In this document: in pieces, positions 5,592 through 22,776 of the stretch | How the letters are laid out: every line of letters begins with the position of its first letter | How positions within the stretch are numbered: the stretch's first letter is position 1 | Source of the DNA: a virus | Virus record (IMG/VR): IMGVR_UViG_3300031625_000537 | Span: 1 to 22,776 of that record | Direction: 5' to 3' (one strand) | Length of the DNA stretch: 22,776 nucleotides | Notes under the pieces: generated by a model | What the model was told of the DNA's origin: nothing | The model's input: only the letters and a program-made list of their open reading frames with translations | Databases searched by the model: none | Translations under genes and position numbers: made by a program

Positions 5592-5618
5592 TTATTCCTT
5601 TCACTTAAACAATAATAT

Positions 5619-5949: not shown

Positions 5950-5984
5950 AATATTCTCTTTCTAAGTATTTAGTTAAATGTTCA

Positions 5985-6881: not shown

Positions 6882-7455
6882 CTGGTTTAAAAATTGGGAG
6901 TTTTTCTAAATAAAGTATATCACCTTTATCATATCCAGCCTCTTCCAATAAGATTGCAGCTTTACATACAATTTCACAATCAATTTTTTCTAACATTGCT
7001 TGAAGTCCTATTAGAGATCCGCCTGTGGACACTACATCATCTATAATACAAACTTTTTTTTCTTTTATTTTTTCAACATCACAACCATCTAAAACAAGTG
7101 TTTGCGCGCCGATTGTAGTAATAGATTGAACTTTTTCTATCATAGGATTATCCATGTATCCCTTGATAGATTTTCTTGCAACAATATAATCTTTTCCCAA
7201 CCTTCTTGCAATGGTGTGTACTAAGGGTATTGCCTTTGCTTCGGGGGAAATTAAAATATCAATTTCATCTTTCTTTGGAAAATCATTCAGAAGAATAATT
7301 GCTTCAGCACACTCTTCTATTAATTCTGTATCACCCAATATGACAAAGCTCGCTATCGCGAGCTCGTCATTGATTTTAACTTTGGGCAACTTGCGTGTGA
7401 GTCCTGCAACTTTTAATTCATAGAACTCATTTGTAAAAGTTTCTCCCCAAGCCAT
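6865..7455 (-). CDS. phosphoribosyltransferase, adenine/xanthine-type (COG0503-like)
   Basis: This is a 196-residue type I phosphoribosyltransferase, joining a free purine (or related) base to PRPP to make the nucleotide in the cytoplasm. The PRPP-binding loop is VCIIDDVVSTGGS at residues 135-147, with the paired acidic residues D139-D140. The Apt-like core shows LISPEAKAIPLVHTIARRLG (residues 68-87) and YIVARKS after it. The flexible hood residues before the loop do not reveal the base preference; adenine, xanthine or guanine are all possible. It starts 1 base after the permease stop and overlaps the oxygenase start by 17 bases, so it is in a tight operon with a binding protein and a permease. 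Import followed by phosphoribosylation would trap the base inside the cell. The base preference is unproven. Confidence 0.88.
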   Translation of the reverse strand: MAWGETFTNEFYELKVAGLTRKLPKVKINDELAIASFVILGDTELIEECAEAIILLNDFPKKDEIDILISPEAKAIPLVHTIARRLGKDYIVARKSIKGYMDNPMIEKVQSITTIGAQTLVLDGCDVEKIKEKKVCIIDDVVSTGGSLIGLQAMLEKIDCEIVCKAAILLEEAGYDKGDILYLEKLPIFKPDDSDN

Positions 7456-7456
7456 A

Positions 7457-8590: not shown

Positions 8591-8612
8591 ATTTACCTTT
8601 CATTATATTATT

Positions 8613-9698: not shown

Positions 9699-9783
9699 TT
9701 TCTCCTTCCAAGAAAAGTGTTTGTTAATTTCTCTCGCTCATTATTTACGGGTCTTCCAACCCCTTCACCGCTCTCGCGTATAA
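9699..9783 (-). promoter_or_regulatory. leader of the uptake cassette, possible weak late-type promoter
   Basis: This is the 85-base gap between the terminator and the BMP gene, noticeably more GC-rich than other gaps. On the minus strand it contains CCGTAAATAATG, a six-of-eight match to the T4 late element TATAAATA, a short GGGTTGGAAGACCC hairpin-like segment, GCGAGAG twice, and the BMP ribosome-binding site. No good sigma70 -35/-10 pair is visible. A structured leader or riboswitch is possible, but I recognise no known class. Confidence 0.35.
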
Positions 9784-9805
9784 AAAGGCCCCCGAAGGAG
9801 CCTTT
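9782..9805 (-). terminator. intrinsic terminator with UUCG tetraloop
   Basis: On the minus strand AAAGGCTCC (9797-9805), loop TTCG (9793-9796) and GGGGCCTTT (9784-9792) form a 9-base-pair stem with one G-U pair. The stem continues into a run of five T. It lies 16 bases after the stop of the 72-residue membrane protein and ends the polymerase transcript, separating it from the uptake cassette. Confidence 0.9.
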
Positions 9806-9821
9806 ACTTTTTGTTGTCTTA

Positions 9822-10040
9822 CTACTTGGAGTAAATTCCCCAGAGCACCCATATTGCAACTAAGCCGATTAAACCTTCGCTTCCTAATTGTTTTACGAGT
9901 GATACAACAGACCCTACGACATCTATTCCGAGAAATGGGACAGCTGCACCGAAAATTATCTGAAGAACTACACCGAGTGCAATAATTGCAAGACCGAGTT
10001 CGGTTATCTGTCTAATCCAACCGAGTGCCTTATCTAACAT
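9822..10040 (-). CDS. small two-helix membrane protein, 72 aa
   Basis: This protein has two hydrophobic segments, approximately residues 15-37 (LGLAIIALGVVLQIIFGAAV and onward) and 52-70 (SEGLIGLVAIWVLWGIY). They are joined by a short loop, with an N-terminal amphipathic stretch containing Lys and Arg. A good ribosome-binding site (AGAGGTAAAAT) precedes the ATG. It follows the phosphoribosyltransferase by 19 bases and precedes a strong terminator, so it is the last gene of its transcript. The two-helix topology and size are compatible with a class II holin, and an endolysin-like peptidase lies upstream in the same block; but a small membrane structural protein is equally possible. Gene likely real, role unproven. 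Confidence 0.78.
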   Translation of the reverse strand: MLDKALGWIRQITELGLAIIALGVVLQIIFGAAVPFLGIDVVGSVVSLVKQLGSEGLIGLVAIWVLWGIYSK

Positions 10041-10059
10041 ATTTTACCTCTTTAAATGG

Positions 10060-10542
10060 TTAATTAAAAGTCAGAGGTGCAGACCACCATGATTCCCACG
10101 GAAAATGTATCCATAGATTCTCAGTGTCCTTTGCGACCTCCCTTACGTAATAATGAGGTTCAAAATTAACCTCGTTATTCCACCAGAGGGATGCAAATCT
10201 TACATCACAACTGATTTCTAAGGGCTGTTCCTTTTTTGGGCCCTTAATAAAAGATGATATACGTTCAAAAGTTTCACCACTATCACATATGTCATCTACT
10301 ATTAAAACCCTCTCATCTGTTCTCCTTGGGAGATATTCTTCCCATTCTGGAAAATCTCTGAGAGAGCTTTTCACGGGCTTAAAAGGCTTCTTTAACCAAT
10401 GAGACATCATAACGCCAGGCGTTAGACCTCCTCTGCTTAAACCCACTATCACGTCTGGTTCAAAATGGTCTAATGTAATCTCTCTACAGAGTTGATTTAC
10501 ATCTAAACACATTTCCTGCCAAGTGTACCATACTTTATTCAT
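10060..10542 (-). CDS. phosphoribosyltransferase, hypoxanthine/xanthine-guanine type
   Basis: This 160-residue type I phosphoribosyltransferase resembles Gpt/Hpt enzymes, which salvage hypoxanthine, xanthine or guanine with PRPP. The PRPP loop is VLIVDDICDSGET at residues 79-91. The SRGG segment (residues 36-39) after PDVIVGL is the pyrophosphate-binding loop, and the Trp/Phe-rich end (LWIHFPWESWW) supplies the usual base-stacking aromatics. The gene follows gp43 by 24 bases. A late-type element GATAAATA lies at 10561-10568 and a GGAG ribosome-binding site lies before the ATG. It is distinct from the second phosphoribosyltransferase at 6865, which is Apt-like, so the phage has two salvage activities of different type. 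Base preference is inferred from resemblance only. Confidence 0.88.
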   Translation of the reverse strand: MNKVWYTWQEMCLDVNQLCREITLDHFEPDVIVGLSRGGLTPGVMMSHWLKKPFKPVKSSLRDFPEWEEYLPRRTDERVLIVDDICDSGETFERISSFIKGPKKEQPLEISCDVRFASLWWNNEVNFEPHYYVREVAKDTENLWIHFPWESWWSAPLTFN

Positions 10543-10560
10543 AACAAATTCTCCATACTA

Positions 10561-10568
10561 TATTTATC
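10561..10568 (-). promoter_or_regulatory. candidate T4-type late promoter element GATAAATA
   Basis: The minus strand reads TTGATAAATATAG, seven of eight to the T4 late consensus TATAAATA. It overlaps the gp43 stop codon and lies 19 bases before the phosphoribosyltransferase ATG, so the leader would be very short. The same octamer occurs at 13756-13763 and 18782-18789, also between genes. Confidence 0.4.
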
Positions 10569-13071
10569 AAATAAAAAACGCTTCTAAGGTACTTCTTTTT
10601 TCAGAAGACCAGCCGATTACCTTCAGAATTTCATTTAAAGGACCACCAAAAGATTTCTCAAATTGCTTCTCATAATCAATATAATCATGTAATCCGAACT
10701 CTTCAGGTAAGCCTTCCATCATAGCTATAACTCCATCTCTAATAGGATTAGGTTGTTTCAAATATACAAACTTAATTTTTTCCCCCTCTTGAATAAGTGG
10801 ATATTTATTTTGTAACTTCTTTTGTTTCAAAAAATGATTATATAGGCGTGTTGCTTTTACATGTACGGGGGTTCCTTTAGCATATAAATCTACTCCGCCA
10901 TTATACTTTTCAATTCCTCTAACAGATCTAGGAAAAGCAATGTTCTCAATAGGTTCTTTCTCAAACTGCACCCTAAAATCTAAAATGAATTTTTGTATAG
11001 CCTCTTCATCTTGATTAATAATAATGTCAAAAGACTTTTTCAATTTATCTCTACAAGATGTGGGAGTTGATGATTTAACAGATTCAATCCCCATAACCTT
11101 AATTCGTGGATTTGTATATCTGACACCTTCATTATCATGGACATTAAGAATATAATGTTTCTTTCCTGTCCAAATACCTTTATCAGCAAGGATCTCTCTT
11201 TTCATAAACATCTTTTGATCATAAGCATTCATATAATTTGCCAGATCTGTATATCCACTATCAATTATTCCTTGAAGCTTTGTCTCACATACTTTATCTA
11301 AGAAATCAATAACTTTTGATGATTCTGGATCTTCAGGAAATACTTTTTGAACTAATGCATCTAATGTAATATAGAGGGAATCGGTGTCCGATGCCAATAC
11401 ATAATCAACCTCTTCCGTTTCCAAAATTTTGTTGAGATATTTATTAACTGCAATTTCTGCCCAACGGATGCTGAGTTGACCTCCTAATGTAATAGCTTCT
11501 GAAATTCTTAAATCATAAAATCTAAAATAAGGGTTTCCGAAAGCACCATAAACACTATTAAGCATTAATTTCATAGCAGTTTGTTTATTGCCAAATGAAT
11601 CTGCTTCTCTTTTTAATTTTTCTATCACAACCGGGTCAGTTTCTTTTTCTATTTTTTTCTTAGCTGCGATTTCCTTCTTTTTAAAGATAACTCTATTATT
11701 ATATTTTTCCTGCATTATCCTTGGTAAAAATCCTTGTTCATCTTTTCTGAAGGCCTGACCACTGGCGGCGATAGTAATATCTTTATCATAGAATTTACTT
11801 AAATCGATTCTCTTCTCCAATAAATTTTCTACACCGCATTGTTGTGTAACGCCTGTTAAAATAGTTTCAGGACTTACATTGTATTGCATAATTAAATGAG
11901 GATATAGACTATTTAAATCAAAGCTGACAACCCATTTATGCATGCCTGTCTGCACTTCTTTTACATACGCGCCAGTATATGCCTTATTCTTTGTATTATC
12001 TTTCTTTGGTGGGACTACAATATTTCTATTCATTAAGTCATTTGCGAGGATCACTTCCCACATCATAACCATTCCAAATGTATCTTGATAATTTACTTTT
12101 GCTTCGTATGCAAGAGCGACAACCATTTCAATTAACTTTTTCTTTTCTTCTAATCGCTCAACTAGTTGTACGTCTTTAATATTATATTCAATAAACTTTT
12201 GGAAATTTTCTTTGTATAATGTAAAAAGGTTACCATACTCTTCAAACGATAATTTTCTTTCTCCTAATTCAATTGAAGCAATATAATCTAACCTATAACT
12301 TTCCGCTGGAGGAGCATTCCTTCTATAAACATCAATGTAATCGATAACGGCAATTCCGATGAGATCATGAAAGATAACTTCCTTTCCACGAAAATTGGTA
12401 ACCCTTTCATGAATCCTGTTCCATGGAGATAACCTGCGTGCTTCTTTAACACTGTATAATCTAACTATTCTATTATACAAATAAGGAATATCAAATCCTT
12501 GTATATTCCAGCCTGTAATAATATCTGGTGATAGTCTTTCCCAGAATGAAATAAATTCTTGAATTAAATGATTTTCATCTGAACATTGAAAATATTCTAC
12601 ATTCTCATCATTACTATTAAACTCGCCACAACCAAAAACAGAATATTTTCCACCAGTCCCAATGGTAATCGCTTGTACTTCTTCAATCGCAGATGTAGGA
12701 TCTGGAAATCCATGTGAGGAGCCAACTTCGATATCAATAGTTGCAATTGTTAATAAGGAAAAATCATAATCAATTCCCTTATCCTTTGGAAAGTTATCAT
12801 ATATCCAACTATACCTATAAGCATTCATTCCGTGTATTTGAAAGTTTTCAACTCCGTCATACTTACGAATAAAATCTCTGGTTTCCTTTATTGTTCCTGG
12901 TTTAATAGGAGCTAAAGGTTTTCCATCAATAGTTTTATATTTGGATTTTTCTCTGGAAGGTATAAAGATAGTAGGATGGTATTCAACGCGATCATCAAAC
13001 TTCTGACCATTCTCATATCCTCTTACTAATATATGATCACCAATCTGATGTACATTGGTATAAAATTTCAT
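10567..13071 (-). CDS. 43: DNA polymerase, T4 gp43-like (family B)
   Basis: This is the replicative family B polymerase with a proofreading 3'-5' exonuclease. At 834 residues it is slightly shorter than T4 gp43 (898). The exonuclease carries Exo I TIDIEVG (D113, E115), Exo II NIQGFDIPYL (D194) and Exo III YNIKDV (Y296, D300). Polymerase motif A is SFDLNSLYPHLIMQYN (D385 and SLYP), motif B is KLMLNSVYGAFGN near residue 505, and motif C is ASDTDSLY (D562, D564). All catalytic residues are intact and there is no intein, frameshift or split, which some T4-like polymerases show. The ATG overlaps the stop of a 52-residue ORF as ATGA, so translation is coupled to it. It should work with gp45, gp44/62 and gp41 encoded nearby. 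Identification is secure. Confidence 0.98.
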   Translation of the reverse strand: MKFYTNVHQIGDHILVRGYENGQKFDDRVEYHPTIFIPSREKSKYKTIDGKPLAPIKPGTIKETRDFIRKYDGVENFQIHGMNAYRYSWIYDNFPKDKGIDYDFSLLTIATIDIEVGSSHGFPDPTSAIEEVQAITIGTGGKYSVFGCGEFNSNDENVEYFQCSDENHLIQEFISFWERLSPDIITGWNIQGFDIPYLYNRIVRLYSVKEARRLSPWNRIHERVTNFRGKEVIFHDLIGIAVIDYIDVYRRNAPPAESYRLDYIASIELGERKLSFEEYGNLFTLYKENFQKFIEYNIKDVQLVERLEEKKKLIEMVVALAYEAKVNYQDTFGMVMMWEVILANDLMNRNIVVPPKKDNTKNKAYTGAYVKEVQTGMHKWVVSFDLNSLYPHLIMQYNVSPETILTGVTQQCGVENLLEKRIDLSKFYDKDITIAASGQAFRKDEQGFLPRIMQEKYNNRVIFKKKEIAAKKKIEKETDPVVIEKLKREADSFGNKQTAMKLMLNSVYGAFGNPYFRFYDLRISEAITLGGQLSIRWAEIAVNKYLNKILETEEVDYVLASDTDSLYITLDALVQKVFPEDPESSKVIDFLDKVCETKLQGIIDSGYTDLANYMNAYDQKMFMKREILADKGIWTGKKHYILNVHDNEGVRYTNPRIKVMGIESVKSSTPTSCRDKLKKSFDIIINQDEEAIQKFILDFRVQFEKEPIENIAFPRSVRGIEKYNGGVDLYAKGTPVHVKATRLYNHFLKQKKLQNKYPLIQEGEKIKFVYLKQPNPIRDGVIAMMEGLPEEFGLHDYIDYEKQFEKSFGGPLNEILKVIGWSSEKRSTLEAFFI

Positions 13072-13226
13072 TTAGTATTTTTGTTATAGTATCGTTCTAC
13101 TTTGTGTCCGCAAGCTTCTAACTTACTATAACACCATAATATTTGGTCATCAATCCAACATCTTCGATCTCTAAAGGCACCAACTGTATAGAGAATTTGG
13201 AGATAACATAGTATGAGATATTTCAT
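13068..13226 (-). CDS. small Cys-containing protein, 52 aa, coupled to gp43
   Basis: This short ORF fills the gap between the M15 peptidase gene and gp43. It begins at ATG (13224-13226), eight bases after TGAGGA, and ends with TGA overlapping the gp43 start as ATGA. The protein begins MKYLILCYLQILYTVGAF, a short hydrophobic helix or signal-like segment. A hydrophilic part follows with Cys24, Cys32 and Cys39 (RRCWIDDQILWCYSKLEACG, residues 21-40), suggesting a small exported protein with disulfides or metal binding. Ribosome-binding site, exact fit and overlap argue that it is translated. No family recognised. A regulatory upstream ORF for gp43 is an alternative reading. Confidence 0.65.
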   Translation of the reverse strand: MKYLILCYLQILYTVGAFRDRRCWIDDQILWCYSKLEACGHKVERYYNKNTK

Positions 13227-13235
13227 TTAAAATCC

Positions 13236-13721
13236 TCATTTGATTAATCCTGTCTTGTAAGAGGTCTTACCGTTGACCCTCAAAGCTGTCATAACCTTTC
13301 CACGATTATTGCCATCTGTTTTATAAGAACAATGCACCCATCCACTTGATGGTTTGCCTGGCTGATAAAATTCTAAAATTAATTGATCAAATTCTAAGTT
13401 ATCTTTGACCCATTCTGCTAATTCGTTATTGCCAACTTTGGAACATTCAAAATCTGCCGCTTCACCGTTACAGTGTTGACTAGTTTTTGATCCACCCACG
13501 GCCTTATTTAAATCAGGACCTCTGTAACCACTATTTACACGAATCGGACCAAACTTATCTCGGACCGGTTGTAAAATATGATTCGCTACGTTAGTAAGAT
13601 TAACTAATACTTGATCTGTAGCAGGTTCATTACTAATACCCATTCTGTCTGCTGTTGAACTTTTAATTAATTCAGGTAAAGTAAAGTTCTGTGCGACTCT
13701 AATATCTTCAGCTTCGTTCAC
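13236..13721 (-). CDS. M15-type peptidoglycan peptidase (endolysin-like)
   Basis: This is a small zinc D-Ala-D-Ala/L-Ala-D-Glu type peptidase of the M15 family (VanY/peptidase M15_3-like). It is likely to cut peptidoglycan cross-links or stem peptides as a lysis enzyme. Visible motifs are VNSGYRGPDLN, SQHCNGEAADF (zinc ligands His and Asp) and WVHCSY (third His ligand). No signal peptide, so it would need a holin or other release. Two in-frame GTG codons compete; the first (13725-13727) overlaps the AGGAG ribosome-binding site, whereas the second (13719-13721) sits five bases after it, so I use the second, giving 161 residues. A candidate late promoter in an inverted repeat precedes it. Endolysin role is inferred from family. 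Confidence 0.9.
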   Translation of the reverse strand: MNEAEDIRVAQNFTLPELIKSSTADRMGISNEPATDQVLVNLTNVANHILQPVRDKFGPIRVNSGYRGPDLNKAVGGSKTSQHCNGEAADFECSKVGNNELAEWVKDNLEFDQLILEFYQPGKPSSGWVHCSYKTDGNNRGKVMTALRVNGKTSYKTGLIK

Positions 13722-13738
13722 TTTCACTCCTATTATGA

Positions 13739-13772
13739 GGTCGTTGGTTTGATAGTATTTATCCCAACGACC
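13739..13772. repeat. 9-bp perfect inverted repeat framing a late-type promoter element
   Basis: GGTCGTTGG (13739-13747) and CCAACGACC (13764-13772) are perfect complements with a 16-base loop. The minus-strand loop starts with GATAAATA, so the element sits against one arm. No T run follows on the minus strand, so it is not a standard terminator. It may be an operator or an mRNA hairpin in the peptidase leader. Confidence 0.75.
13756..13763 (-). promoter_or_regulatory. candidate T4-type late promoter of the M15 peptidase
   Basis: The minus strand reads GGGATAAATACT, seven of eight to the T4 late element TATAAATA, about 30 bases before the gene start and with no competing sigma70 pair. Lysis genes are usually late, which fits. 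A predicted start just downstream would leave a leader of about 25 bases with the AGGAG site. Confidence 0.55.
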
Positions 13773-13781
13773 CCGTCGAAT

Positions 13782-14255
13782 TTATTCCTGATTTGTAACA
13801 ATCGGAATTTGTCTAATCATTTGTTCCTCCGGAATAATCTTTTCCATTGAAACTGTTAGCATACCATTATTAAGAGCTGCTCCCTTAATAACAATATCAT
13901 CGGAAAGAGTCCAAGAACGTTTGAAATTTCGTCTTGCAATTCCTTGATGAAGAAATTCATTTTCTGACTCTTTAGCTAAAGAATTCGTACCTGTTGACTC
14001 GACGGTTAAAACGCCGGCTTCCACGTTCACTTTAATATCTTTTTCACTGAGTCCAGCAACTGCTAACTCTATTATATAATGTTCTCCTTCTTTTTTCAAG
14101 TTATAAGGTGGGTAACCTGAAGAATTTTGTTGGTGAAAATTAGATAAGTCCCCAAATAATCTGTCAAACATGTGTTCAAACCCTAATGAGGTTTGTAACA
14201 TGGTTTCAAAATGTTTGGGATTATTGAACAGTGAAATTGCGTTTGTATGTAACAT
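13782..14255 (-). CDS. hsp20: small heat-shock protein Hsp20 (alpha-crystallin family)
   Basis: This is a 157-residue ATP-independent holdase chaperone that forms oligomers and binds unfolding proteins. A Phe/His-rich N-terminal arm (residues 1-50) precedes the alpha-crystallin domain. That domain includes ELAVAGLSEKDIKVNVEAG (short pieces near residues 68-86), the strand LTVES, FKRSWTLSDDI, and the signature GAALNNGMLTVSM (A-x-x-x-N-G-x-L). The C-terminal RQIPIV provides the I-x-I/V oligomer contact. Hsp20 is a hallmark gene of marine T4-like phages and may help fold or assemble virion proteins. A strong ribosome-binding site (AAAGGAGATAA) precedes the ATG. It is the last gene of the clamp-loader/dUTPase run, and a late promoter precedes the next gene. 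Identification is secure. Confidence 0.95.
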   Translation of the reverse strand: MLHTNAISLFNNPKHFETMLQTSLGFEHMFDRLFGDLSNFHQQNSSGYPPYNLKKEGEHYIIELAVAGLSEKDIKVNVEAGVLTVESTGTNSLAKESENEFLHQGIARRNFKRSWTLSDDIVIKGAALNNGMLTVSMEKIIPEEQMIRQIPIVTNQE

Positions 14256-14282
14256 ATTATCTCCTTTAATTAAGCAAGATTA

Positions 14283-14525
14283 TCAGTCTCTCCATCCCTC
14301 GCCAGCGAGCAGATGTTCAAACCGATGTTTAAGAATAATCCATATTAACTCTAATATGGAATCGGCAGTATACTCACCGACCTCGTCGATTGTATACTTA
14401 CCTGTTTCAGGATCTGTTATAACTCTATCATAAACTAGAAAATCATAACTATGTCCTGCTATGCCATGAGGTCTTTCCATGCGTTCTTTCCAGCCCCATT
14501 TTGCATCATCAACAAAATTTGTCAT
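14283..14525 (-). CDS. hypothetical protein, 80 aa
   Basis: This small acidic protein is not recognised. It has an N-terminal WGWKERMERPHG stretch, then a probable beta segment (SYDFLVYDRVITDPETGKYT in short pieces), and an amphipathic C-terminal helix with Trp and Ile (ILELIWIILKHRFEHLLAG, residues 57-75). The ATG overlaps the dUTPase stop as ATGA, so translation is coupled, and Hsp20 follows after a 27-base gap. Small ORFs of this kind often accompany dUTPase in T4-like phages, but I cannot name a family or activity. The coupling and lack of any other ORF support it as a real gene. Confidence 0.8.
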   Translation of the reverse strand: MTNFVDDAKWGWKERMERPHGIAGHSYDFLVYDRVITDPETGKYTIDEVGEYTADSILELIWIILKHRFEHLLAGEGWRD

Positions 14526-15028
14526 TTACCAGTGCTCCCAAAACCACCATCGCGATCGGTTTTTTGTGGAGGTTTAGTAGATGTTTCATCAATATCATAA
14601 TGAATCATTTCGACAAGTTCGCCCTGAGCGATCCTATCACCATTATTTATAATGATTGTTTGAACTTCTGATAAATTTACGCAAGCAATAAATAATGGTT
14701 CCACATAATCATAATCAATTACTCCTTCACAATTAATTAAGCTCAAACCTTGTTTAATTGCTGTTCCAGATCTTGGGTGTATCCTTACTGAATGGTTCGG
14801 CGGAATATCTAAGATCATTCCGGTTGGAATTAATACCCTTTGAAATGGATGTATTGTGATGGAAGAATCTTTTCTGTCAATAAACTTCTTCCTATCATCG
14901 TTCCAAACTTTATATCCTAATTCAGGTTTATAATATGCATGTATATCAAAACATGCGGATCCTATTGTAGAAAAGCTTGGAAGGGTAACATCATCATATA
15001 TTTTATGTATTTTCAACTTTAACATCAT
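14522..15028 (-). CDS. dut: dUTPase (trimeric, Dut family)
   Basis: This deoxyuridine triphosphatase hydrolyses dUTP to dUMP and pyrophosphate, keeping uracil out of DNA and supplying dUMP for thymidylate synthesis. All five motifs are present: I, GSACFDIHAY; II, PRSGTAIKQG; III, GVIDYDYVEP with the catalytic Asp; IV, NNGDRIAQGELVEM; V, DRDGGFGSTGK. An insertion after motif I (KVWNDDRKKFIDRKD) lengthens it relative to the ~150-residue bacterial enzyme. A longer reading exists from a TTG at 15044-15046, but ATG codons at 15026-15028 and 15023-15025 start in front of the conserved strand MLKLKIHKI, so I use the first ATG. Its start lies inside the end of regA. Overlap with both neighbours indicates one operon. 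Secure. Confidence 0.95.
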   Translation of the reverse strand: MMLKLKIHKIYDDVTLPSFSTIGSACFDIHAYYKPELGYKVWNDDRKKFIDRKDSSITIHPFQRVLIPTGMILDIPPNHSVRIHPRSGTAIKQGLSLINCEGVIDYDYVEPLFIACVNLSEVQTIIINNGDRIAQGELVEMIHYDIDETSTKPPQKTDRDGGFGSTGK

Positions 15029-15428
15029 CGTTTTTTTTATTTCCAATATTATATTTGGCTACTAAGTTCCATTCATCTTTTTCTTTAAAAGATATAATTT
15101 TTAACTGATTAATTGGAACTATATTATCTTTAACCTTGTCATTATCAACAATTTGTGCTAAATCCCATTCTGATAATAAATTAACTATTGTATTACGTCT
15201 CGCTGCATCATTATCAGAAAAATTAGATGGTTTTCCATCTAACATAAACAACTCTTTAAAATGAACAATATAATATCGACTTTGCTTATGTAAAATATGA
15301 CAACTCTGATATAACGTCTTATCTTTCTTAGACGCTACACCAATCCTTGTTAAAGTCTCTTTTACTTTTAAAAAATCATCGGGTTGTTTTAATTTGATTT
15401 CAACGAGTGCTTCGACCTCTATACTCAT
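15003..15428 (-). CDS. regA: RegA translational repressor
   Basis: This is an RNA-binding protein that represses translation of T4 early mRNAs by occupying the initiation region, including its own. It is strikingly conserved: KETLTRIGVASKKDKTLYQS and CHILHKQSRYYIVHFKELFM (quoted as separate stretches) track T4 RegA closely. The C-terminal IISFKEKDEWNLVAKYNIGN also matches. The protein is slightly longer than T4 RegA (122). An AAGGAG ribosome-binding site lies one base before the first ATG (15429-15431) and four before the second; I choose the second. It overlaps gp62 by about 29 bases and the downstream dUTPase. The gene order 45-44-62-regA is the T4 order. Identification is secure; target mRNAs in this phage are inferred. 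Confidence 0.96.
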   Translation of the reverse strand: MSIEVEALVEIKLKQPDDFLKVKETLTRIGVASKKDKTLYQSCHILHKQSRYYIVHFKELFMLDGKPSNFSDNDAARRNTIVNLLSEWDLAQIVDNDKVKDNIVPINQLKIISFKEKDEWNLVAKYNIGNKKNDDVKVENT

Positions 15429-15819
15429 CATGCTCCTTCAATCCACCTGTAAATAATTTTTGCTTGAGCGTACTTAAATCTTCATCTGTGAATATATCAA
15501 TGACCTCTCTTGCTTTTTGAAAGGAATATCCATAATATTCAACGATAAGATCTATAGCTTCGTACTTCTCAGCCTTTAACCATCGACCAAATCTGTTCTT
15601 GGGTCTGATGATATTTAGCAAATAATGGTATTGAAGTTTATTATCTAGAAATGGGCGTATGTTCATTTCATTAGCATAAAGGGCCGTATCGGAGGTAAAA
15701 CTTAATGTTCTATTAATTAAAAATGGCTTGTATTCACGTTCGAATTGTCCATCAGGATCATCTTTCAGTAAATCCTTCTTCTTATAGTTTATATCTTTTA
15801 CAAAATCAAATGGATTCAT
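15400..15819 (-). CDS. 62: clamp loader small subunit, T4 gp62-like
   Basis: This is the small subunit of the clamp loader, which with gp44 opens and places the gp45 ring on DNA. It has 139 residues from the ATG MNPFDFVKDI, shorter than T4 gp62 (187). The identification rests on position between gp44 and RegA and on the N-terminal PFDFVKDINYKKKDLL motif, which resembles T4 gp62. A longer reading from a TTG at 15823-15825 adds two residues, but the ATG at 15817-15819 overlaps the gp44 TGA in an ATGA, as is typical of coupled 44-62 translation, and is preferred. No ATPase motif, as expected for this subunit. Predicted mostly helical. Confident from context plus sequence. Confidence 0.92.
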   Translation of the reverse strand: MNPFDFVKDINYKKKDLLKDDPDGQFEREYKPFLINRTLSFTSDTALYANEMNIRPFLDNKLQYHYLLNIIRPKNRFGRWLKAEKYEAIDLIVEYYGYSFQKAREVIDIFTDEDLSTLKQKLFTGGLKEHDEYRGRSTR

Positions 15820-16754
15820 TGCCAATTCCCTTCAACCATTATCTCAATCAAACATGCTGTTAAATTAATTTGTTGGTCGGCGGCAAATGCAGATTTATAT
15901 TGATAATCTGCTAACAATAAAATAATTGGTGGTAACGTATTAGATGTTAAATGTTCATGTAAATTATCGTATAACTGTCTATATATATTCCTTGGATCTG
16001 TATGACTTGAATCATTTACCCATTTTCGAACATTGGTAAAATTCTTTTCTTTTAATGCATTAATAAGAGCAAGGAAGTTAGTATCACCCAATTGACTGAG
16101 AACCCCACTATCAATGCCTCCTGTACTACTGTATCGCTGTAATTCATTTAATGTCCTCCTAAAATCTGGATAATACCTCATTATCAATTCAACAAGAACC
16201 TTCTCATTATAATTGACATTGCTTTCATCAAGAATTTCTTTTGCCCTATCTAACATTTGAGATGCTATTTTAGGGGCATCCTTTTTATCTATTTTAAACT
16301 CAATAACTGAGGTCCGAGAATGAATAGGATCAATAATCCTATGTATATAATTGCAGGTAAAAATGAAACTACAATTCTCCGAGAATCTTTCAATAAACCC
16401 CCTTAATGCAGGTTGGGTTGATTGGGGATTTAAATAATCCGCCTCATCAATAATTACAACTTTTCTACCACCTAATAACGAAACACTACTACAATAATTT
16501 TCTAATTTAACTCTCAATAAATCTATCCCTGATTCTTGTGAGCCATTCACAACAAGATAATCTAAACCGATTTCTTTACACATTGCTTTAGCAATTGTTG
16601 TCTTCCCTACACCTGGTCCTCCACTCAATAATAGATTAGGAATATTGCCTTTATCTACAAATGCTTGAAATGGTTCTTTCAAATGACTAGGGAGAATACA
16701 GTCTGATACCCTTTGAGGTCTATACGCCTCAACCCATAATATATTATCTGACAT
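15816..16754 (-). CDS. 44: clamp loader large subunit, T4 gp44-like AAA+ ATPase
   Basis: This is the ATPase subunit of the sliding clamp loader, four copies of which form the ring with one gp62. At 312 residues it is close to T4 gp44 (319). Motifs in order are WVEAYRPQRVSDCI at the start, Walker A GGPGVGKT (residues 45-52), Walker B VVIIDEAD (DEAD 103-106), sensor 1 FIFTCNY, and the arginine finger SRTS (R147) in the SRC-type position. A C-terminal helical collar domain follows (residues 230-312). The TAAGGATT ribosome-binding site overlaps the gp45 stop; the 3' end overlaps gp62. It is a core replisome gene, probably RegA-regulated as in T4. Secure. Confidence 0.97.
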   Translation of the reverse strand: MSDNILWVEAYRPQRVSDCILPSHLKEPFQAFVDKGNIPNLLLSGGPGVGKTTIAKAMCKEIGLDYLVVNGSQESGIDLLRVKLENYCSSVSLLGGRKVVIIDEADYLNPQSTQPALRGFIERFSENCSFIFTCNYIHRIIDPIHSRTSVIEFKIDKKDAPKIASQMLDRAKEILDESNVNYNEKVLVELIMRYYPDFRRTLNELQRYSSTGGIDSGVLSQLGDTNFLALINALKEKNFTNVRKWVNDSSHTDPRNIYRQLYDNLHEHLTSNTLPPIILLLADYQYKSAFAADQQINLTACLIEIMVEGNWQ

Positions 16755-16759
16755 AATCC

Positions 16760-17446
16760 TTATGTTGTTTGTTCAGTTGCAATCCAATACTCTAATTCTT
16801 TATCTGTATTTTTAAAATGTCCGAGACCTTTATTTGATATTCTCACATCATAAGTGCCTCTCATAAGTTTAAGGTTCTCTATCTTAAAAATCATTTTAAA
16901 GTTAGAATTAGAATTTCCTAAATCAACCGCGAAACTATCAACGGATGTTTTGGAATCGATTGCTTGCATTTTGAGTTTGCCGTCGCTCGCTATAACAGCA
17001 ATCTCGGGGAGACTCATAACTGATGCTGCTCTCATAATAGCAATAAAATACTTCTCTTCAAGCTTGAATGAAGCATCTTCGGAAGGTAACTCAATATCTT
17101 TTTCAAGAATCTTTTTTTCGTTTTCAAACAAAGACATATTTGCAAATTGATATTCAGCAATTGAATCACCAGCTGTATAATTATTTGCATCAACACTTGA
17201 TTGAATCTTTACAGATTTTTCACTAAATTCAAATTGTGGTTCTGTAAACAAAGAAAGAACGCCCAAGAATTTATTGAGATCATAGATCGCAAAATCTTGT
17301 GCGAAGCTCTGACTAAGTTTCGCTTTCGCCAACACATTTGTTTGTTCACTAACTGTCTTAATAACATCGCCGGTATTAATAACCAAACTTTGATTAATCT
17401 CGGCAAAGTTCTTTAATGTCTCAACAGTCTCATTATGTATAATCAT
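16760..17446 (-). CDS. 45: sliding clamp, T4 gp45-like
   Basis: This is the trimeric processivity clamp that tethers gp43 to DNA and, in T4, also activates late transcription together with gp33 and gp55. The length is 228 residues, the same as T4 gp45. The N-terminus IIHNETVETLKNFAEINQSL and the internal YDLNKFLGVLSLF and FIAIMRAASVMSLPEIAVI (quoted in part) are in gp45-like positions. The initiation region is A/T-rich with no clear Shine-Dalgarno sequence (AAAAAATATGATTA), six bases after the glycosyltransferase stop. This resembles sites regulated by RegA in T4, so repression by the RegA encoded downstream is a reasonable inference. If gp45 acts in late transcription here too, the GATAAATA elements would be its targets. 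Confidence 0.95.
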   Translation of the reverse strand: MIIHNETVETLKNFAEINQSLVINTGDVIKTVSEQTNVLAKAKLSQSFAQDFAIYDLNKFLGVLSLFTEPQFEFSEKSVKIQSSVDANNYTAGDSIAEYQFANMSLFENEKKILEKDIELPSEDASFKLEEKYFIAIMRAASVMSLPEIAVIASDGKLKMQAIDSKTSVDSFAVDLGNSNSNFKMIFKIENLKLMRGTYDVRISNKGLGHFKNTDKELEYWIATEQTT

Positions 17447-17451
17447 ATTTT

Positions 17452-18447
17452 TTATAAATGGTTAGGGCTTTTGGTATAACCGGGCTTCCCGGGCTTTTTC
17501 TCTTTGCGTTTACTGGCAGCGAGTTTTCTACGTTCCTTTCTATTCTTGCCTTGAGAAGATAACTTCTTTTTTCTATCTTCTAAGAAAGGTCTATTCTCGG
17601 TATCATATCCATGTGCCGCATATTCTAATGCACCCATATCTGGCAAGTTACCAGAAAACACATATGTTCCAACATGCGATAATTTCATCCATGGACATAA
17701 CCAAGTTTTAATGCCAATCTTTTGTGCTAATTGGCAAAACATATAATCTTCAGATAGATAACGATCTGAGTTTTCAGATTTACCTTCACCCATCCATTGA
17801 TCATTATCAATAATTGTATCAAAAAATGCATGAATATATCTGGAACCATCGAAATGTTCTGAGCGATTATGATCGGGTTTATATCGAAACTTAGGATATT
17901 CTTTTGCAAATTTTTCTAATACCTCACGTTGTATCATCATAAACCCAGTTCCAATTTCCAAAGCTTGTACGGGTTCTGATAAAGAAATTGTTTGTTCTCC
18001 CCCTACTGGATTAAAAACAAAATCCCCAGTGTATCTCTCTAACAACATCGGGTCATCATCACCCAATCCTTTATCTACTGCATTACGAACCTTCTCCCAA
18101 GCAATACATTTCTTAGGATATATTCCACCAATAATTGGATGTTCGTCATCACATAATGCTGCTAATGTAAGAACATATTGAGGATCGAAATTAATATCAG
18201 CATCGATGAACATGAGATGTGTATAATCAGATCTCAAGAACTCATCTGTACAATAATTTCGTGCTCTTGTAATTAGGGATTCGTTAAAAAGATAAAAGAA
18301 TTTTAAATCTATTTGATATTTGGTGGCGGTCGTTGCTAAGTCACAACAAGCTTTCGTATACATTCCACTACACATACCGCCATACATTGGTGTAGCAACA
18401 AATATACGTTTCTTTCTTAAATCTGCTATGGGTACTTCAATCTGCAT
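17452..18447 (-). CDS. phage glycosyltransferase (GT-A fold, family 2-like)
   Basis: This 331-residue predicted nucleotide-sugar glycosyltransferase has an N-terminal RIFVATPMYGGM strand and loop, a DxD metal/nucleotide-sugar motif in HLMFIDADINF (D82, D84), and GIYPKK. LEIGTGFMMIQREVLEKF is in the acceptor side, and LSEDYMFCQLAQKIG in the usual catalytic-acidic position of GT-A enzymes. The C-terminal 35 residues are extremely Lys/Arg-rich and probably disordered or nucleic-acid binding. A strong ribosome-binding site (AAAGGAGTGA) precedes the ATG. It stands between the cold-shock gene and gp45, unusual company for a glycosyltransferase. Substrates could be modified DNA bases, host surface sugars or virion proteins; the sequence does not tell. 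The fold is fairly confident, the acceptor unknown. Confidence 0.85.
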   Translation of the reverse strand: MQIEVPIADLRKKRIFVATPMYGGMCSGMYTKACCDLATTATKYQIDLKFFYLFNESLITRARNYCTDEFLRSDYTHLMFIDADINFDPQYVLTLAALCDDEHPIIGGIYPKKCIAWEKVRNAVDKGLGDDDPMLLERYTGDFVFNPVGGEQTISLSEPVQALEIGTGFMMIQREVLEKFAKEYPKFRYKPDHNRSEHFDGSRYIHAFFDTIIDNDQWMGEGKSENSDRYLSEDYMFCQLAQKIGIKTWLCPWMKLSHVGTYVFSGNLPDMGALEYAAHGYDTENRPFLEDRKKKLSSQGKNRKERRKLAASKRKEKKPGKPGYTKSPNHL

Positions 18448-18525
18448 TCACTCCTTTCATAATGATAAAAACAGAAAAATACTTAATAAAACTCTATCTT
18501 AAATTACTAATATATAGGGGGATGA

Positions 18526-18720
18526 TTAGAGCAGCCTAATATTTTTAGCTGAGAGGCCTTTTTCCGCATTAACTATATCAAATTCTACTTTATCGTTTTC
18601 ATTAATATAAACACCATTGAGTTCATTTGAATGAACGAAAACATCTTTACTTTCATCGTCTTGATTGATGAAGCCAAAACCCTTACTAGGGTTAAACCAT
18701 TTTACTGTACCTGTTGCCAT
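18526..18720 (-). CDS. csp: cold-shock-domain protein (CspA family)
   Basis: This 64-residue single cold-shock domain binds single-stranded RNA or DNA and melts mRNA secondary structure. The signature is complete: GTVKWFNPSKGFGFI with RNP1 (KGFGFI, residues 14-19) and RNP2 DVFVHSNEL (residues 27-35), followed by KVEFDIVNAEKGLSAKNI, typical of bacterial Csp. It is transcribed from a consensus sigma70 promoter and is the first gene of the replication block, so it should be made early and abundantly. A weak AAGTAAG precedes the ATG. It may act as an RNA chaperone for phage or host transcripts during takeover, or protect single-stranded DNA; both are inference. Probably acquired from a bacterium, as the sequence is close to bacterial Csp. 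Confidence 0.95.
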   Translation of the reverse strand: MATGTVKWFNPSKGFGFINQDDESKDVFVHSNELNGVYINENDKVEFDIVNAEKGLSAKNIRLL

Positions 18721-18770
18721 CTTACTTCTTACTTTCTTATTTTTAAATTTAAATGAATTGAAATTATTTT

Positions 18771-18809
18771 ACGTTATCATTTATTTATCTATATTATAAA
18801 TGATAACGT
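18771..18809. repeat. 14-bp perfect inverted repeat across the csp promoter
   Basis: ACGTTATCATTTAT (18771-18784) and ATAAATGATAACGT (18796-18809) are exact complements around an 11-base loop. The right arm overlaps the promoter spacer and -10 region, and the left arm covers the early transcript. It could be a repressor operator. A second ATAAATG follows the right arm at 18811-18817. There is no terminator-like T run on the minus strand. Confidence 0.85.
18782..18789 (-). promoter_or_regulatory. candidate late element GATAAATA inside the csp operator
   Basis: The minus strand reads ATAGATAAATAAATG just downstream of TATAAT and spanning the inverted-repeat loop. It is seven of eight to the T4 late element. 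The same octamer sits in the loop of the inverted repeat at 13739-13772. AT-rich DNA makes chance matches easy. Confidence 0.35.
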
Positions 18810-18821
18810 TATAAATGTCAA
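18793..18821 (-). promoter_or_regulatory. consensus sigma70 promoter of csp and the replication block
   Basis: TTGACA (18816-18821) and TATAAT (18793-18798) on the minus strand are both perfect matches, separated by 17 bases. The start point would be near 18786, giving a leader of about 65 bases to the csp ATG. It is strong, and is expected to be recognised by the host holoenzyme early in infection. Confidence 0.9.
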
Positions 18822-18833
18822 GGATTATTTTGT

Positions 18834-20009
18834 TTATTTTTCTTCAGAAATTTTCACGCCGGCGTACAAATCATCTTCGTCTAATTCAGGTGTAGCTGAA
18901 GGGTCTACTTTCGTCCAAAGATCCATAAATCCTTTTTTAGTATCTTCATCAAAACGATTGATCGAATATTCGATCGCTTTAGACTTGTCCTTGAAAACCA
19001 TATATGAATTAACAATATTAACTAAACGGCGTGTTGAGATAATTTCATCAATTCCTCCATCATCAAATGTTCGACGAATCACATCTGTCCATTGAACCAA
19101 ATGTTCAACAAACTCAGGATCTTCAACTTGATAGTTTCCAAGAACCTTAGTAATGATCTTTTTCTCTGTTAAAGCATTTGGGTAATCATGTTCGAATGTA
19201 ATTGGAAAACGATCAAGGAAAGCCTCATTGAGAATGTTAGTTCCGATGAATCGTCCATCATCAGATCCTTTACCTTTGGTATTCGCAGTTGCGATAATGT
19301 TGAATCCAGGAACTGGTTTAACCAGACGATTAATTTTTTTCAAGAAGATATTTCCACCCTCAAGAACTGGCTGTAAACACATGATCTTATTTGATGCGAG
19401 GTCAACCTCATCAAGAAGAAGGACTGCGCCTCTTTCCATTGCAACAATTATTGGTCCGTCCTCCCAAATTGTTTCTCCATTTTTGAGAGTATAGTGACCG
19501 AGTAAATCATCTTCGTCGGTCTCAATTGTAATATTAACACGAATTAATTCCCGTTTTGTTTTTGCTGCCGCCTCGAAAACTTCTTTAGTCTTGCCCATTC
19601 CAGAAAGGCCTGTAATGAATGTTGGAATGAACATTCCTGAATTCATGATTTTAACTAGTTCAGCAAAATACCCCGCCTTAACATAATTAGGATCAGGTGA
19701 AGGTATAAATGAAACTGCTTCATCAACCTTTTTGATTGCGGTCTCATGTTGGACTACGCGGGCATCTTCAACAATTTTTGGTTTGCGATAACGATCGCCC
19801 CATTTCGCTTGTGGCATAATTTGTAATGCTTGTCCATAATTGGCAATCGAAAATTGATTTCGGCCAACTCTAAGTTTACTTAAAAAATTCTGATTTGGTT
19901 CTTTAAGTCCAGCATCGCCGGCGATTTTATTTACCTCGGCTCTATCAAGTACTTTTGAATCTCCAAATGCTTGCTTCCAGGCTTCTACTAATTGGTCTCG
20001 GTGGTTCAT
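18834..20009 (-). CDS. cobS: CobS/MoxR-like AAA+ ATPase
   Basis: This AAA+ ATPase is related to CobS, the cobaltochelatase ATPase, and to MoxR chaperones that act with VWA proteins. In the longest-reading numbering, Walker A is GLSGMGKT (residues 144-151), Walker B is LLLDEVD (207-213), sensor 1 is IATANT, and LDRF (275-278) carries the arginine finger. The N-terminal ~120 residues are a helical domain with SKLRVGRNQFSIANYG. A start at 20039 is possible but lies only eight bases after the TATAAT box without a ribosome-binding site. The ATG at 20007-20009 follows AGAGAGAGA and is preferred, giving 391 residues. It works most likely with the VWA protein encoded upstream. CobS-like genes are common in marine T4-like phages; the biochemical role there is unproven. 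Confidence 0.9.
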   Translation of the reverse strand: MNHRDQLVEAWKQAFGDSKVLDRAEVNKIAGDAGLKEPNQNFLSKLRVGRNQFSIANYGQALQIMPQAKWGDRYRKPKIVEDARVVQHETAIKKVDEAVSFIPSPDPNYVKAGYFAELVKIMNSGMFIPTFITGLSGMGKTKEVFEAAAKTKRELIRVNITIETDEDDLLGHYTLKNGETIWEDGPIIVAMERGAVLLLDEVDLASNKIMCLQPVLEGGNIFLKKINRLVKPVPGFNIIATANTKGKGSDDGRFIGTNILNEAFLDRFPITFEHDYPNALTEKKIITKVLGNYQVEDPEFVEHLVQWTDVIRRTFDDGGIDEIISTRRLVNIVNSYMVFKDKSKAIEYSINRFDEDTKKGFMDLWTKVDPSATPELDEDDLYAGVKISEEK

Positions 20010-20047
20010 AATATTATCTCTCTCTAGTTTATTATTCATTATGTTAT

Positions 20048-20076
20048 ATTATACGCTATTTTAGCAAAAATAGCAA
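20048..20076 (-). promoter_or_regulatory. sigma70-type promoter of cobS
   Basis: TTGCTA (20071-20076) and TATAAT (20048-20053) on the minus strand are 17 bases apart. The -35 matches four of six, the -10 is perfect. The spacer and -35 carry the palindrome GCTATTTT-N4-AAAATAGC (20055-20074), which could be an operator. Confidence 0.8.
20055..20074. repeat. 8-bp perfect inverted repeat in the cobS promoter spacer
   Basis: GCTATTTT (20055-20062) and AAAATAGC (20067-20074) with a four-base loop cover the spacer and most of the -35. No downstream T run, so a terminator is unlikely; a repressor binding site is plausible. Confidence 0.6.
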
Positions 20077-20087
20077 CTGTTTTGTTT

Positions 20088-20097
20088 ATCAATGATT
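20088..20097 (-). promoter_or_regulatory. shared upstream promoter element (cobS copy)
   Basis: AATCATTGAT on the minus strand ends 11 bases before the -35. The identical decamer ends 11 bases before the -35 of the VWA gene at 22733-22742. The flanking TGRAATCATTGAT also matches. This is a candidate activator or UP-type site. Confidence 0.6.
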
Positions 20098-20125
20098 TCA
20101 ATGAGCTTCCTATAACTCGTTGAAA
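20096..20125. repeat. imperfect 10-bp inverted repeat between the VWA and cobS genes
   Basis: TTTCAATGAG (20096-20105) and CTCGTTGAAA (20116-20125) pair at nine of ten positions around a 10-base loop. On the minus strand no T run follows. It overlaps the shared upstream element. It may be a weak terminator or a binding site. Confidence 0.45.
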
Positions 20126-20146
20126 TTGTTGTGAAACAAAAGTGCA

Positions 20147-22663
20147 TTACGATACCATTTCTGTAAATCGATTAAGAAGAACACGCTTTTCAAGTTTTCC
20201 TTTTTGGAACTTTTTAAAGGCACGCGCCATTTGCGATGTACTCTGTTTTTTATCAGTATCGATATTAATCTCATCTTCAGTATCAACTTTCTTGTTCGCT
20301 TTAATCACATATAATTCTGAATATCCACTGTCGGTATTCACAACGAATCCGTTCTTATTATATTCAGATCTGATTTTCATGAAATCTTCTCCATACCTAT
20401 CATGAGTACAAATCTCTGCTGCTGTATCAGAACTGGTACAAAGAAAAAAACCACAAACATTCGATGATGTCTTATATTTGTAGTATTCAAGAAAGTTCTT
20501 AGTCTCCTGTCTTCCGGTGTTGCGGTGCCAATCAAATACTTTTTTCGTATCGCGATCAACTAATTTATTGCGCACTTCCTTCCTCTCAATCGGTACTGCT
20601 GAAACCATGGTTGGGTTTCCATCATCATCTTTAAATTGTTTAAAATACCTATAAGAACCATTTGATTCCCCATCAGTCAAAATAACAGTATTAACAATAT
20701 CTAACTTATTATCTTTTTTAAATTGATTACAATATGGAATGCTGTACATGATCGCATCATTCAGCGGTGTTCCACAAAGTCTTGACAATGGAAAGTTATG
20801 CTTTGCCGCAATTGATTGCCATTCCCATGTAGCCATTGTACCATATTTTTCAGCTAACTTGTTGAAAATACCCTCTTGCTTTGTTTCTTTAATCAGACGA
20901 ACTTTTTTACCATACGCTTGTGCTTTATATTCATTATTACGTCTTCTTCCACCGAGATAAGGAGCTTCATGAAAATCACGATCACATCGGAGTAAAGTTA
21001 AGATCATAAACTCTCTCATGTCTCGAAAATCCCTTGCTGACATCTTATCTGAAAATATCTGTATTAGTTGCAAATGCCGGTCGCCCATTGCAAGTGAATT
21101 TACATCTGACTCACACACTGCATTGTCTTTTATTCCTTCTATTTGGTTGCCTTGTTCATCAAAGGAATAATCAACAAATGCATACACTTCATGTTTAATA
21201 CTGCATTTCCTACAGAAGTCCATAAGTTGTAACAACTGAATAAATGTTGGCATCATCTTATCGTGCATCGATCCGGACCAATCTATGAGCATATATAATC
21301 CATGATTTTTTCCTTCTGGGACAATCGTAACCTTCTTAAAAATATTATCTGAATATTTGTACTTATGAATATCTGACAACGATATCATTCCTGAATTAGA
21401 GGTCATTGATCTTTTATACTCAGATGCCCTCTTTTTCATTTCAAATTCCTTTGCGAGATAATTAACAACTGGCTTATTATCCTTATCAATCAACTTTAAA
21501 AATTCTTTAGCATAATCAAACAAATGTGTATTATCTATATCTCTTTTACCTTTGCCCGCCATGATTTTACGATATTCCTTTATTAAACTTTTATAATCAA
21601 AAATCAATCCGTTATCTTTGAGATTCATCTTTGGTGAATTATAATATTTAATATCAATTGCATCTTCATGAACCAACTCTGCTTCATGTGATCTATATTC
21701 TTCATCAGTGATTGATTTAGGATTCCATGTCCACGGATCATCATCATACCAAGCATCTTCACCGCCGGCTGATGTTCGTCCCGATTGTTGTGAACTCGTC
21801 TTATCTTCTTCTTTCTTTTCACCAGCTGATTTCTCTGCATTTACATTTTGTTCTAATTTAGCTTCTTCACTTTCTTCACGTTTTTCTTTTGAATCATCAC
21901 ATATATCAACGGGCTGTTCGCAATCTTTTTTTTCTGCTTGTTCTTCACTTTCTGGATTTTCTTCCGATGATGTTTCTTCTGGATACTCATAATCATACTC
22001 TTCAGAATCCTCTTCGTCTTCATCTTCATCTTCATCATACTCTTCAAATGAAGTCATTTGCTCATCGTAATCCTCAAGTTGTTGTTCTTCGCCCTTACAA
22101 TACTCGTAGAGTTCTTCTGTCAATTGTTCTACATCATCCCATGTCTCAAGTTTTTCCATCTCTTGAACGAAATACATCTCTTCTTCAGTAAATCTGACAC
22201 CTTCACGTGGTCCACCTTTAAAATGAATATTGAGTTTATCAATCAGTGATGTTTCATTGATATCAAGACCAAGTTTATTAATTCCGAAGAAATCCCGATC
22301 ATGCATCAAAATCTGATATCCCTTGTGCATTGATTTTGCTGCACCATGATATTTGTTCTTGACAAGTTTCTCGATTCGTGCATCTTCGACAATATTTAAA
22401 AATCCTTTGTAGTTTGGGCCTTCCTCGCAAAGTGCTCGGTGCCAACCATCTGCTGGAGTATATAATGCATGTCCGATCTCATGGCACACAAACAAGTCAT
22501 ATACTTCTCCTTCCATTTCCTTAAGGATTGGAAGAAGTAATGTTCTCGATTTTGGATCAAATCCTGCGGTGGGGATTTTAGCATGACGAACCGTTATATT
22601 CTCGGTTGCCATTAACTTAGCTAGGATTGATTTTTGTTCTCGTAATTCGTTCATCTCTCTCAT
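20147..22663 (-). CDS. CobT-like VWA-domain protein with N-terminal HEIGH metallopeptidase-like motif
   Basis: This 838-residue three-part protein has an N-terminal domain (1-190) with FVCHEIGHALYTP, an HExxH zinc motif at residues 61-65, and NIVEDARIEKL about 30 residues on, which could give the third ligand. Residues ~200-300 are low-complexity, very acidic (EEYDEDEDEDEEDSEEYDYE) and probably disordered, as in CobT. The C-terminal part holds a VWA domain: MIDAS DWSGSMH (D461-x-S-x-S), a Thr in CGTPLNDAIMY and VILTDGES. Large VWA proteins of this form pair with MoxR/CobS AAA+ ATPases, and one is encoded next. Two starts are possible, 22663 or 22654 (MNELREQ); neither has a clear Shine-Dalgarno sequence. 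It has its own sigma70 promoter. Function is inferred: a metal-chelatase-like or substrate-remodelling machine. Confidence 0.88.
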   Translation of the reverse strand: MREMNELREQKSILAKLMATENITVRHAKIPTAGFDPKSRTLLLPILKEMEGEVYDLFVCHEIGHALYTPADGWHRALCEEGPNYKGFLNIVEDARIEKLVKNKYHGAAKSMHKGYQILMHDRDFFGINKLGLDINETSLIDKLNIHFKGGPREGVRFTEEEMYFVQEMEKLETWDDVEQLTEELYEYCKGEEQQLEDYDEQMTSFEEYDEDEDEDEEDSEEYDYEYPEETSSEENPESEEQAEKKDCEQPVDICDDSKEKREESEEAKLEQNVNAEKSAGEKKEEDKTSSQQSGRTSAGGEDAWYDDDPWTWNPKSITDEEYRSHEAELVHEDAIDIKYYNSPKMNLKDNGLIFDYKSLIKEYRKIMAGKGKRDIDNTHLFDYAKEFLKLIDKDNKPVVNYLAKEFEMKKRASEYKRSMTSNSGMISLSDIHKYKYSDNIFKKVTIVPEGKNHGLYMLIDWSGSMHDKMMPTFIQLLQLMDFCRKCSIKHEVYAFVDYSFDEQGNQIEGIKDNAVCESDVNSLAMGDRHLQLIQIFSDKMSARDFRDMREFMILTLLRCDRDFHEAPYLGGRRRNNEYKAQAYGKKVRLIKETKQEGIFNKLAEKYGTMATWEWQSIAAKHNFPLSRLCGTPLNDAIMYSIPYCNQFKKDNKLDIVNTVILTDGESNGSYRYFKQFKDDDGNPTMVSAVPIERKEVRNKLVDRDTKKVFDWHRNTGRQETKNFLEYYKYKTSSNVCGFFLCTSSDTAAEICTHDRYGEDFMKIRSEYNKNGFVVNTDSGYSELYVIKANKKVDTEDEINIDTDKKQSTSQMARAFKKFQKGKLEKRVLLNRFTEMVS

Positions 22664-22692
22664 CTCACGATATTGTTTTATTCTCTACTTAT

Positions 22693-22721
22693 ATTATACT
22701 ATAAATTACCCAAAATGTCAA
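22693..22721 (-). promoter_or_regulatory. consensus sigma70 promoter of the VWA gene
   Basis: Perfect TTGACA (22716-22721) and TATAAT (22693-22698) on the minus strand with a 17-base spacer. Predicted start near 22686, leader of 23-32 bases. Early host-polymerase transcription is expected. Confidence 0.9.
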
Positions 22722-22732
22722 CAGAAATGATC

Positions 22733-22742
22733 ATCAATGATT
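22733..22742 (-). promoter_or_regulatory. shared upstream promoter element (VWA copy)
   Basis: AATCATTGAT on the minus strand ends 11 bases before the perfect -35, identical in sequence and spacing to 20088-20097. An adjacent palindrome ATGATCAT and an ATCAA-ACGCG-TTGAT inverted repeat (22755-22769) lie nearby, so this may be a composite site. Confidence 0.6.
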
Positions 22743-22776
22743 CCATAGGGTTACATCAAACGCGTTGATATCATTG

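Follow-up and report, generated by a model that had tools for sequence, protein, structure and literature searches.

The DNA analysed here (the window) is a 22.8-kb virus record (22,776 nucleotides) of a T4-like phage, and all genes treated below lie on its minus strand. The gene order matches that of Pelagibacter phage HTVC008M (peptidase, cobS, accessory genes, clamp, clamp loader and RegA); a DNA match to a near-identical phage was not found in GenBank. An accessory cluster at 5985-9698 encodes a PnrA/Bmp-like nucleoside-binding protein, a membrane protein of permease-like appearance without a Pfam match, a phosphoribosyltransferase and a 2OG-Fe(II) oxygenase; together with a second phosphoribosyltransferase at 10060-10542, these genes suggest purine or nucleoside salvage. 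A promoter and a hairpin occupy the gap that separates the cobS stop at 18834 from the csp start at 18720 (Table 1).

Table 1. Features around the cobS-csp gap
Feature	Position	Strand	Remarks
cobS	18834..20039	minus	Upstream gene; read-through RNA would carry both arms
-35 hexamer TTGACA	18816..18821	minus	Direct reading and promoter scan
-10 hexamer TATAAT	18793..18798	minus	17-nt spacer to -35; direct reading and promoter scan
Hairpin 5' arm ACGTTATCATTTAT	18796..18809	minus	In promoter spacer; TAT common to -10
Hairpin loop	18785..18795	minus	11 nt in the window
Hairpin 3' arm ATAAATGATAACGT	18771..18784	minus	3' of -10
Late-type motif GATAAATA	18782..18789	minus	Loop and start of 3' arm
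csp	18526..18720	minus	Cold-shock domain protein, 64 aa; Pfam CSD, 1.1e-22
Displaced U-rich tract TATTTTTCTGTTTTTAT	18461..18477 (approximate)	minus	From alignment; beyond csp, just ahead of glycosyltransferase-like gene
Glycosyltransferase-like gene	17452..18447	minus	PHROG 1574 (function unknown); directly 3' of the element in csp-less relatives
Replication genes	15003..17446	minus	gp45 clamp, gp44 and gp62 clamp loader, RegA

The first-pass annotation had described a perfect TTGACA-17-TATAAT promoter overlapping one arm of a 14-bp inverted repeat before csp, and direct reading of the minus strand confirmed this arrangement. The promoter matches the sigma-70 consensus (spacer of 16-18 nt) at 12 of 12 positions. 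One other 12/12 match was found when positions 3000-22776 were scanned; it lies at 22721-22693, ahead of an 838-aa peptidase-like gene in the cobT position, and has no obvious hairpin. The inverted repeat formed by ACGTTATCATTTAT and ATAAATGATAACGT is perfect over 14 bp, with an 11-nt loop. Since the 5' arm ends in the TAT of TATAAT, the inner stem pairs partly reflect overlap with the promoter. In 60 dinucleotide shuffles of the window, inverted repeats of at least 14 bp with a loop of 3-20 nt did not occur (maximum, 12 bp), and the RNA fold of the hairpin had a z-score of -5.0. An Rfam search of the window gave no match at gathering score.

The late-like GATAAATA had been placed in the loop. 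The motif is indeed present, but its final three bases (ATA) also open the 3' arm, so that it straddles loop and arm. It lies ahead of a gene, like a T4-type late promoter, and its motif class is enriched in relatives: upstream of genes in two long relatives, the enrichment was 7-11 times for TATAAATA and about 5 times for GATAAATA. TTGACA-16/18-TATAAT was enriched 12-15 times there, and what this supports of the strong early transcription proposed earlier is a putative strong sigma-70-type promoter. From these motifs we infer promoter activity and its timing. Start sites of sigma-70 and T4 late promoters follow from hexamer spacing. By this measure the predicted starts are at about 18786 (sigma-70) and about 18776 (late-type), both at or inside the 3' arm.

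Conservation of the hairpin and the position of csp

A search with CobS yielded 30 loci with 74-100% CobS identity (L004-L033), and the hairpin was present at the same position in all 30. A DNA pattern scan in which the 3' arm was not required recovered the same family and a few extra contigs, along with four unrelated promoters without a real hairpin. Only 4 of the 30 loci contain csp; in the other 26, the hairpin lies directly ahead of the glycosyltransferase-like gene (gp45 operon), which speaks against a csp-specific switch. An anti-termination loop of Csp on its own hairpin was likewise dismissed as the chief explanation, since the hairpin is kept in csp-less relatives. The sigma-70 hexamers are kept in the relatives except in L014 and its near-twin L107 (TTGCCA/TATACT), and both of these keep the hairpin despite their weaker hexamers. 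The late-type NATAAATA, given in PMC2984593 as the S-PM2 late consensus, occurs at this site only in a sub-clade marked by ACGTTA. The ACATTA sub-clade (L015-L030 and L033) has TTAAATA or a similar sequence instead, which is hardly enriched (1.1-1.6 times), and yet keeps the hairpin. Thus, the late control envisaged earlier may apply to one sub-clade, in which NATAAATA overlaps the region, but it does not appear to be conserved. Because csp and the late motif vary while the hairpin stays, the hairpin is the most constant part of the element and independent of both.

The stems are A-T rich and 14-18 bp long, and the loops in relatives measure 7, 8, 9, 11 or 14 nt; L015 and L019 have longer stems with matching outer pairs. 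In an alignment of 14 elements, 98.0% of the cells were paired compared with 90.9 ± 1.2 in shuffles, and the covariation score was 0.252 compared with 0.120 ± 0.017, with none of 500 shuffles as high, although kinship of the aligned sequences inflates the comparison with shuffles. When the register was slid, at most 50.3% were paired. Three pairs show double changes (pair 3, G-C to A-U; pair 10, U-A to G-U; pair 11, C-G to U-A and to A-U), about four events when counted by eye. Such pairs were no more numerous than in shuffles (264/500), and those at positions 3 and 10 of the stem changed along one split between two sub-clades. The outer 11 pairs, which lie outside both -10 motifs, covary. Departures from pairing comprised G-U at several positions, two C-A cells and two U-U cells; as a contrast of G-U with A-C, they are too few to prove pairing at the RNA level by themselves. 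Loss of arm symmetry with both hexamers kept, which the first-pass annotation would have counted against its proposal, is found in part in L005 (98% CobS identity), where two changes in the 5' arm (one to G-U, one to C-A) leave the hexamers intact, but this case is outweighed by the clade-wide covariation. L008 and L012 each have one stem mismatch.

The arm pair is single: in eight records searched it was found only at the present site, and a hairpin model matched once in each of the two longest, which measure 167 and 177 kb. The model had no match in the fetched regions of HTVC008M, Mosig, S-SM1 and Sf-FP1, though much of the gene order is common to them. Outside the present junction, nested hairpins were found at 2 of about 200 promoter-like sites compared with 8 of 215 control positions, and a general trait of early promoters in these phages was therefore rejected.

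By alignment, the csp cassette is placed exactly between GATAACG(T) and TTTTTCTG, that is, between stem and U-tract, and the U-tract therefore now lies beyond csp. Judged from this alignment, csp is a recent insertion between hairpin and U-tract. Between the window and L006, csp DNA is 99.0% identical, the glycosyltransferase-like gene 94% and cobS 85%; the csp value of 99.0%, with cobS at about 85%, also holds for L007. Because csp is so much more similar than cobS, the csp segment has probably undergone recent spread or exchange, and the identical arms in the window and L006 may go back to one recent exchange. The arm changes of L005, a member of the csp lineage, are as expected if selection on the stem is relaxed there, though L008 and L012 also carry mismatches. 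A clear cellular donor of csp was not found, the best matches being only about 57-58% identical and mostly from actinobacteria; all phage csp matches were below 60%, and a literature search for a cold-shock gene in marine T4-like phages found no report.

Other hairpins in the window and its relatives

Upstream of the endolysin gene (PHROG 894; 13727-13236), the hairpin GGGGTCGTTGG/CCAACGACCTC at 13774-13737 on the minus strand (z-score, -5.8) has GATAAATA in its loop and lies a few nucleotides before AGGAG, a Shine-Dalgarno sequence. Most relatives keep a late motif inside a hairpin there, and in the other sub-clade the stem is quite different (GAGGGT/ACCCTC and similar). In arrangement, this leader resembles the early-translation lock of T4 lysozyme (gene e) and is closer to the T4 prototype than the cobS-csp hairpin. 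In the endolysin leaders of L237 and L239, an inverted repeat, TTATAGTTGA/TCAACTATAA, separates the late-motif region from the endolysin gene; a consensus TTGACA-17-TATAAT lies within it, and its arms include portions of both hexamers. The cobT-cobS gap (20130-20048, minus strand) contains an inverted repeat ATTTCAA...TTGAAAT ahead of the cobS promoter, which most relatives keep without a U-tract; the cobS promoter itself has TTGCTA in the window compared with TTGACA in most relatives, and its spacer region holds GCTATTTT/AAAATAGC in the window. Inside a dUTPase-like gene, at 14699-14639, two arms 37 nt apart form a perfect inverted repeat of 12 bp, and one of them contains most of a TATAAATA. 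L071 has a promoter-like TTGACA...TATATT with the inverted repeat TTTCATATT/AATATGAAA, the 3' arm of which appears to hold the start codon of the next gene.

Possible roles of the stem-loop

In csp-less relatives, T makes up 8-10 of the 12 nt that follow the stem. Terminator scores exceeded 0 in L018 and L027, were borderline in L014 and fell below 0 in the others, and an A-T-rich stem is atypical of a terminator. In the window, the stem is followed by AAAATAATTTC instead of an immediate U-tract, and the terminator score was -80. Since csp now stands between stem and U-tract, intrinsic termination is probably weakened or lost in the window. An ordinary intrinsic terminator is predicted before the glycosyltransferase-like gene in 10 of 35 relatives that are more distant.

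With a little more belief than doubt, we regard the stem-loop as a terminator-like or insulating RNA element that ends the cobT-cobS unit and has the promoters of the next operon nested inside it. Such an element would mark the 3' boundary of the cobT-cobS unit, and the nested promoters would serve the glycosyltransferase-like gene, clamp, clamp loader and RegA, and in the window also csp. Because both predicted starts lie at or inside the 3' arm, only RNA reading through from cobS, which holds both arms, should be able to fold; RNA begun at the sigma-70 or the late-type start would lack the 5' arm and form no hairpin. We infer that the hairpin would stop, slow or mark the read-through RNA, and the replication operon would then be driven by its own early promoter, possibly by a late one too in one sub-clade, rather than by read-through. 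More tentatively, we propose a conserved leader element at the core replication operon in which the stem of the read-through hairpin incorporates an early promoter, joined by a late one in some members, such that the fold would record where an RNA originated: read-through RNA would be stopped or marked and self-started RNA exempt. We favour the insulating or terminator-like role, place RNA processing next and consider an operator or a translational lock less likely.

Processing seems unlikely, although it ranks next after the insulating role: a double-strand RNase would cut the cobS read-through RNA, or the stem would protect the 3' end of cobS mRNA, without termination. The long (14-18 bp), A-T-rich stem with its larger loop and the failure of most relatives to reach a terminator score would fit such a site, as would the persistence of the stem in the csp lineage without its U-tract and the further U-tract-less hairpin in the cobT-cobS gap. 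However, every csp-less relative has a U-rich tail after the stem, a feature superfluous at a site that serves processing alone.

That a repressor dimer binds both arms as a DNA operator and shuts the early promoter after early infection, as the first-pass annotation proposed, is improbable. The perfect dyad over spacer, -10 and start region is in a classic position for repression, and dyad symmetry is conserved. But since the loop varies from 7 to 14 nt, the spacing of the half-sites varies by 7 bp and would take them off a common helix face, a variation that an RNA stem-loop would tolerate. Moreover, the sub-clades differ in both arm sequences, which have changed together. Dispersed operator copies were rejected on the single arm pair in the eight records searched, and the 167- and 177-kb relatives likewise have only one. 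Nor is T4 early shut-off known to use operators, its mechanism being unknown according to PMC2988021. An RNA stem-loop is thus favoured over a dimeric operator because the arms covary, the loop varies and the arm pair is single.

Slightly more doubtful still is a translational lock like that of T4 gene e, in which folding of the read-through RNA would block translation of the next gene and self-started RNA would be translated. The logic of the nesting is that of T4 e, soc and I-TevI, and a closer case is present at the endolysin of the same phage. However, 50 nt separate the stem from the csp start (ATG at 18720), and in csp-less relatives about 28-35 nt lie between it and the start of the next gene, which leaves the ribosome-binding site free. 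Because T4-type hairpins cover that site and the present one does not, an insulating or terminator-like role is favoured. Very improbable, finally, is pairing without a function of its own, arising incidentally where two A-T-rich promoter motifs overlap in sequences of common descent: TATAAT and NATAAATA explain the inner pairs (TAT/ATA) and kinship inflates the covariation, but the outer 11 pairs beyond both -10 motifs covary, no shuffle reached 14 bp, and the stem outlives the loss of either promoter motif.

Nesting the start signal of the replication genes in such a hairpin appears to be an economical means of keeping adjacent gene blocks apart. Control of replication-gene timing in marine T4-like phages that lack MotA/AsiA is described as unclear in PMC2984593. 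If our reading is true, the element would insulate the clamp/clamp-loader operon from upstream transcription and supply its own promoter, and would thus be a concrete piece of replication-gene control; an accessory gene such as csp, inserted between hairpin and U-tract, could rewire the operon in one step.

Comparison with known systems

Predicted intrinsic terminators in more distant marine T4-like contigs also lie ahead of the glycosyltransferase-like gene and consist of a hairpin and a U-tract, and 2 of 10 overlap an ATAAATA motif. In contrast to the present element, they have shorter stems, mostly of higher G-C content, and no consensus sigma-70 promoter is woven in. For RB49 and S-PM2, replication genes with dual early/late promoters are on record (PMC2984593). 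The middle genes of RB49, S-PM2 and Syn9, phages without MotA/AsiA, have overlapping early and late promoters, and both motifs ahead of replication genes are a feature shared with the present group of marine T4-like viruses. The difference is that the available text of PMC2984593 mentions no conserved hairpin joining early and late motifs; in the present group, moreover, the late motif is found in part of the members only.

The seg43 hairpin of Aeromonas phage 25 (PMC2988022) is similar in that a stable hairpin lies upstream of, not over, the ribosome-binding site. There, however, that site is immediately next to the stem, whereas the present stem lies about 28-50 nt from the start codon, and the early promoter inside the stem is a feature of the present element.

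In T4, late promoters are nested in the hairpins of gene e, soc, 49 and I-TevI, and these hairpins form only in RNA from upstream promoters, the RNA of the nested promoter lacking the 5' arm (PMC3014915, PMC2988022). The present element shares with them a nested promoter whose predicted transcript, with starts placed by spacing, lacks the 5' arm. It differs in that its usual nested promoter is of the sigma-70 (early) type instead of late, that its stem does not cover the ribosome-binding site or start codon as the e, soc and I-TevI hairpins cover theirs, and that the operon served is one for replication rather than lysis or homing. The present element is a variation on a hairpin trick already known from T4.
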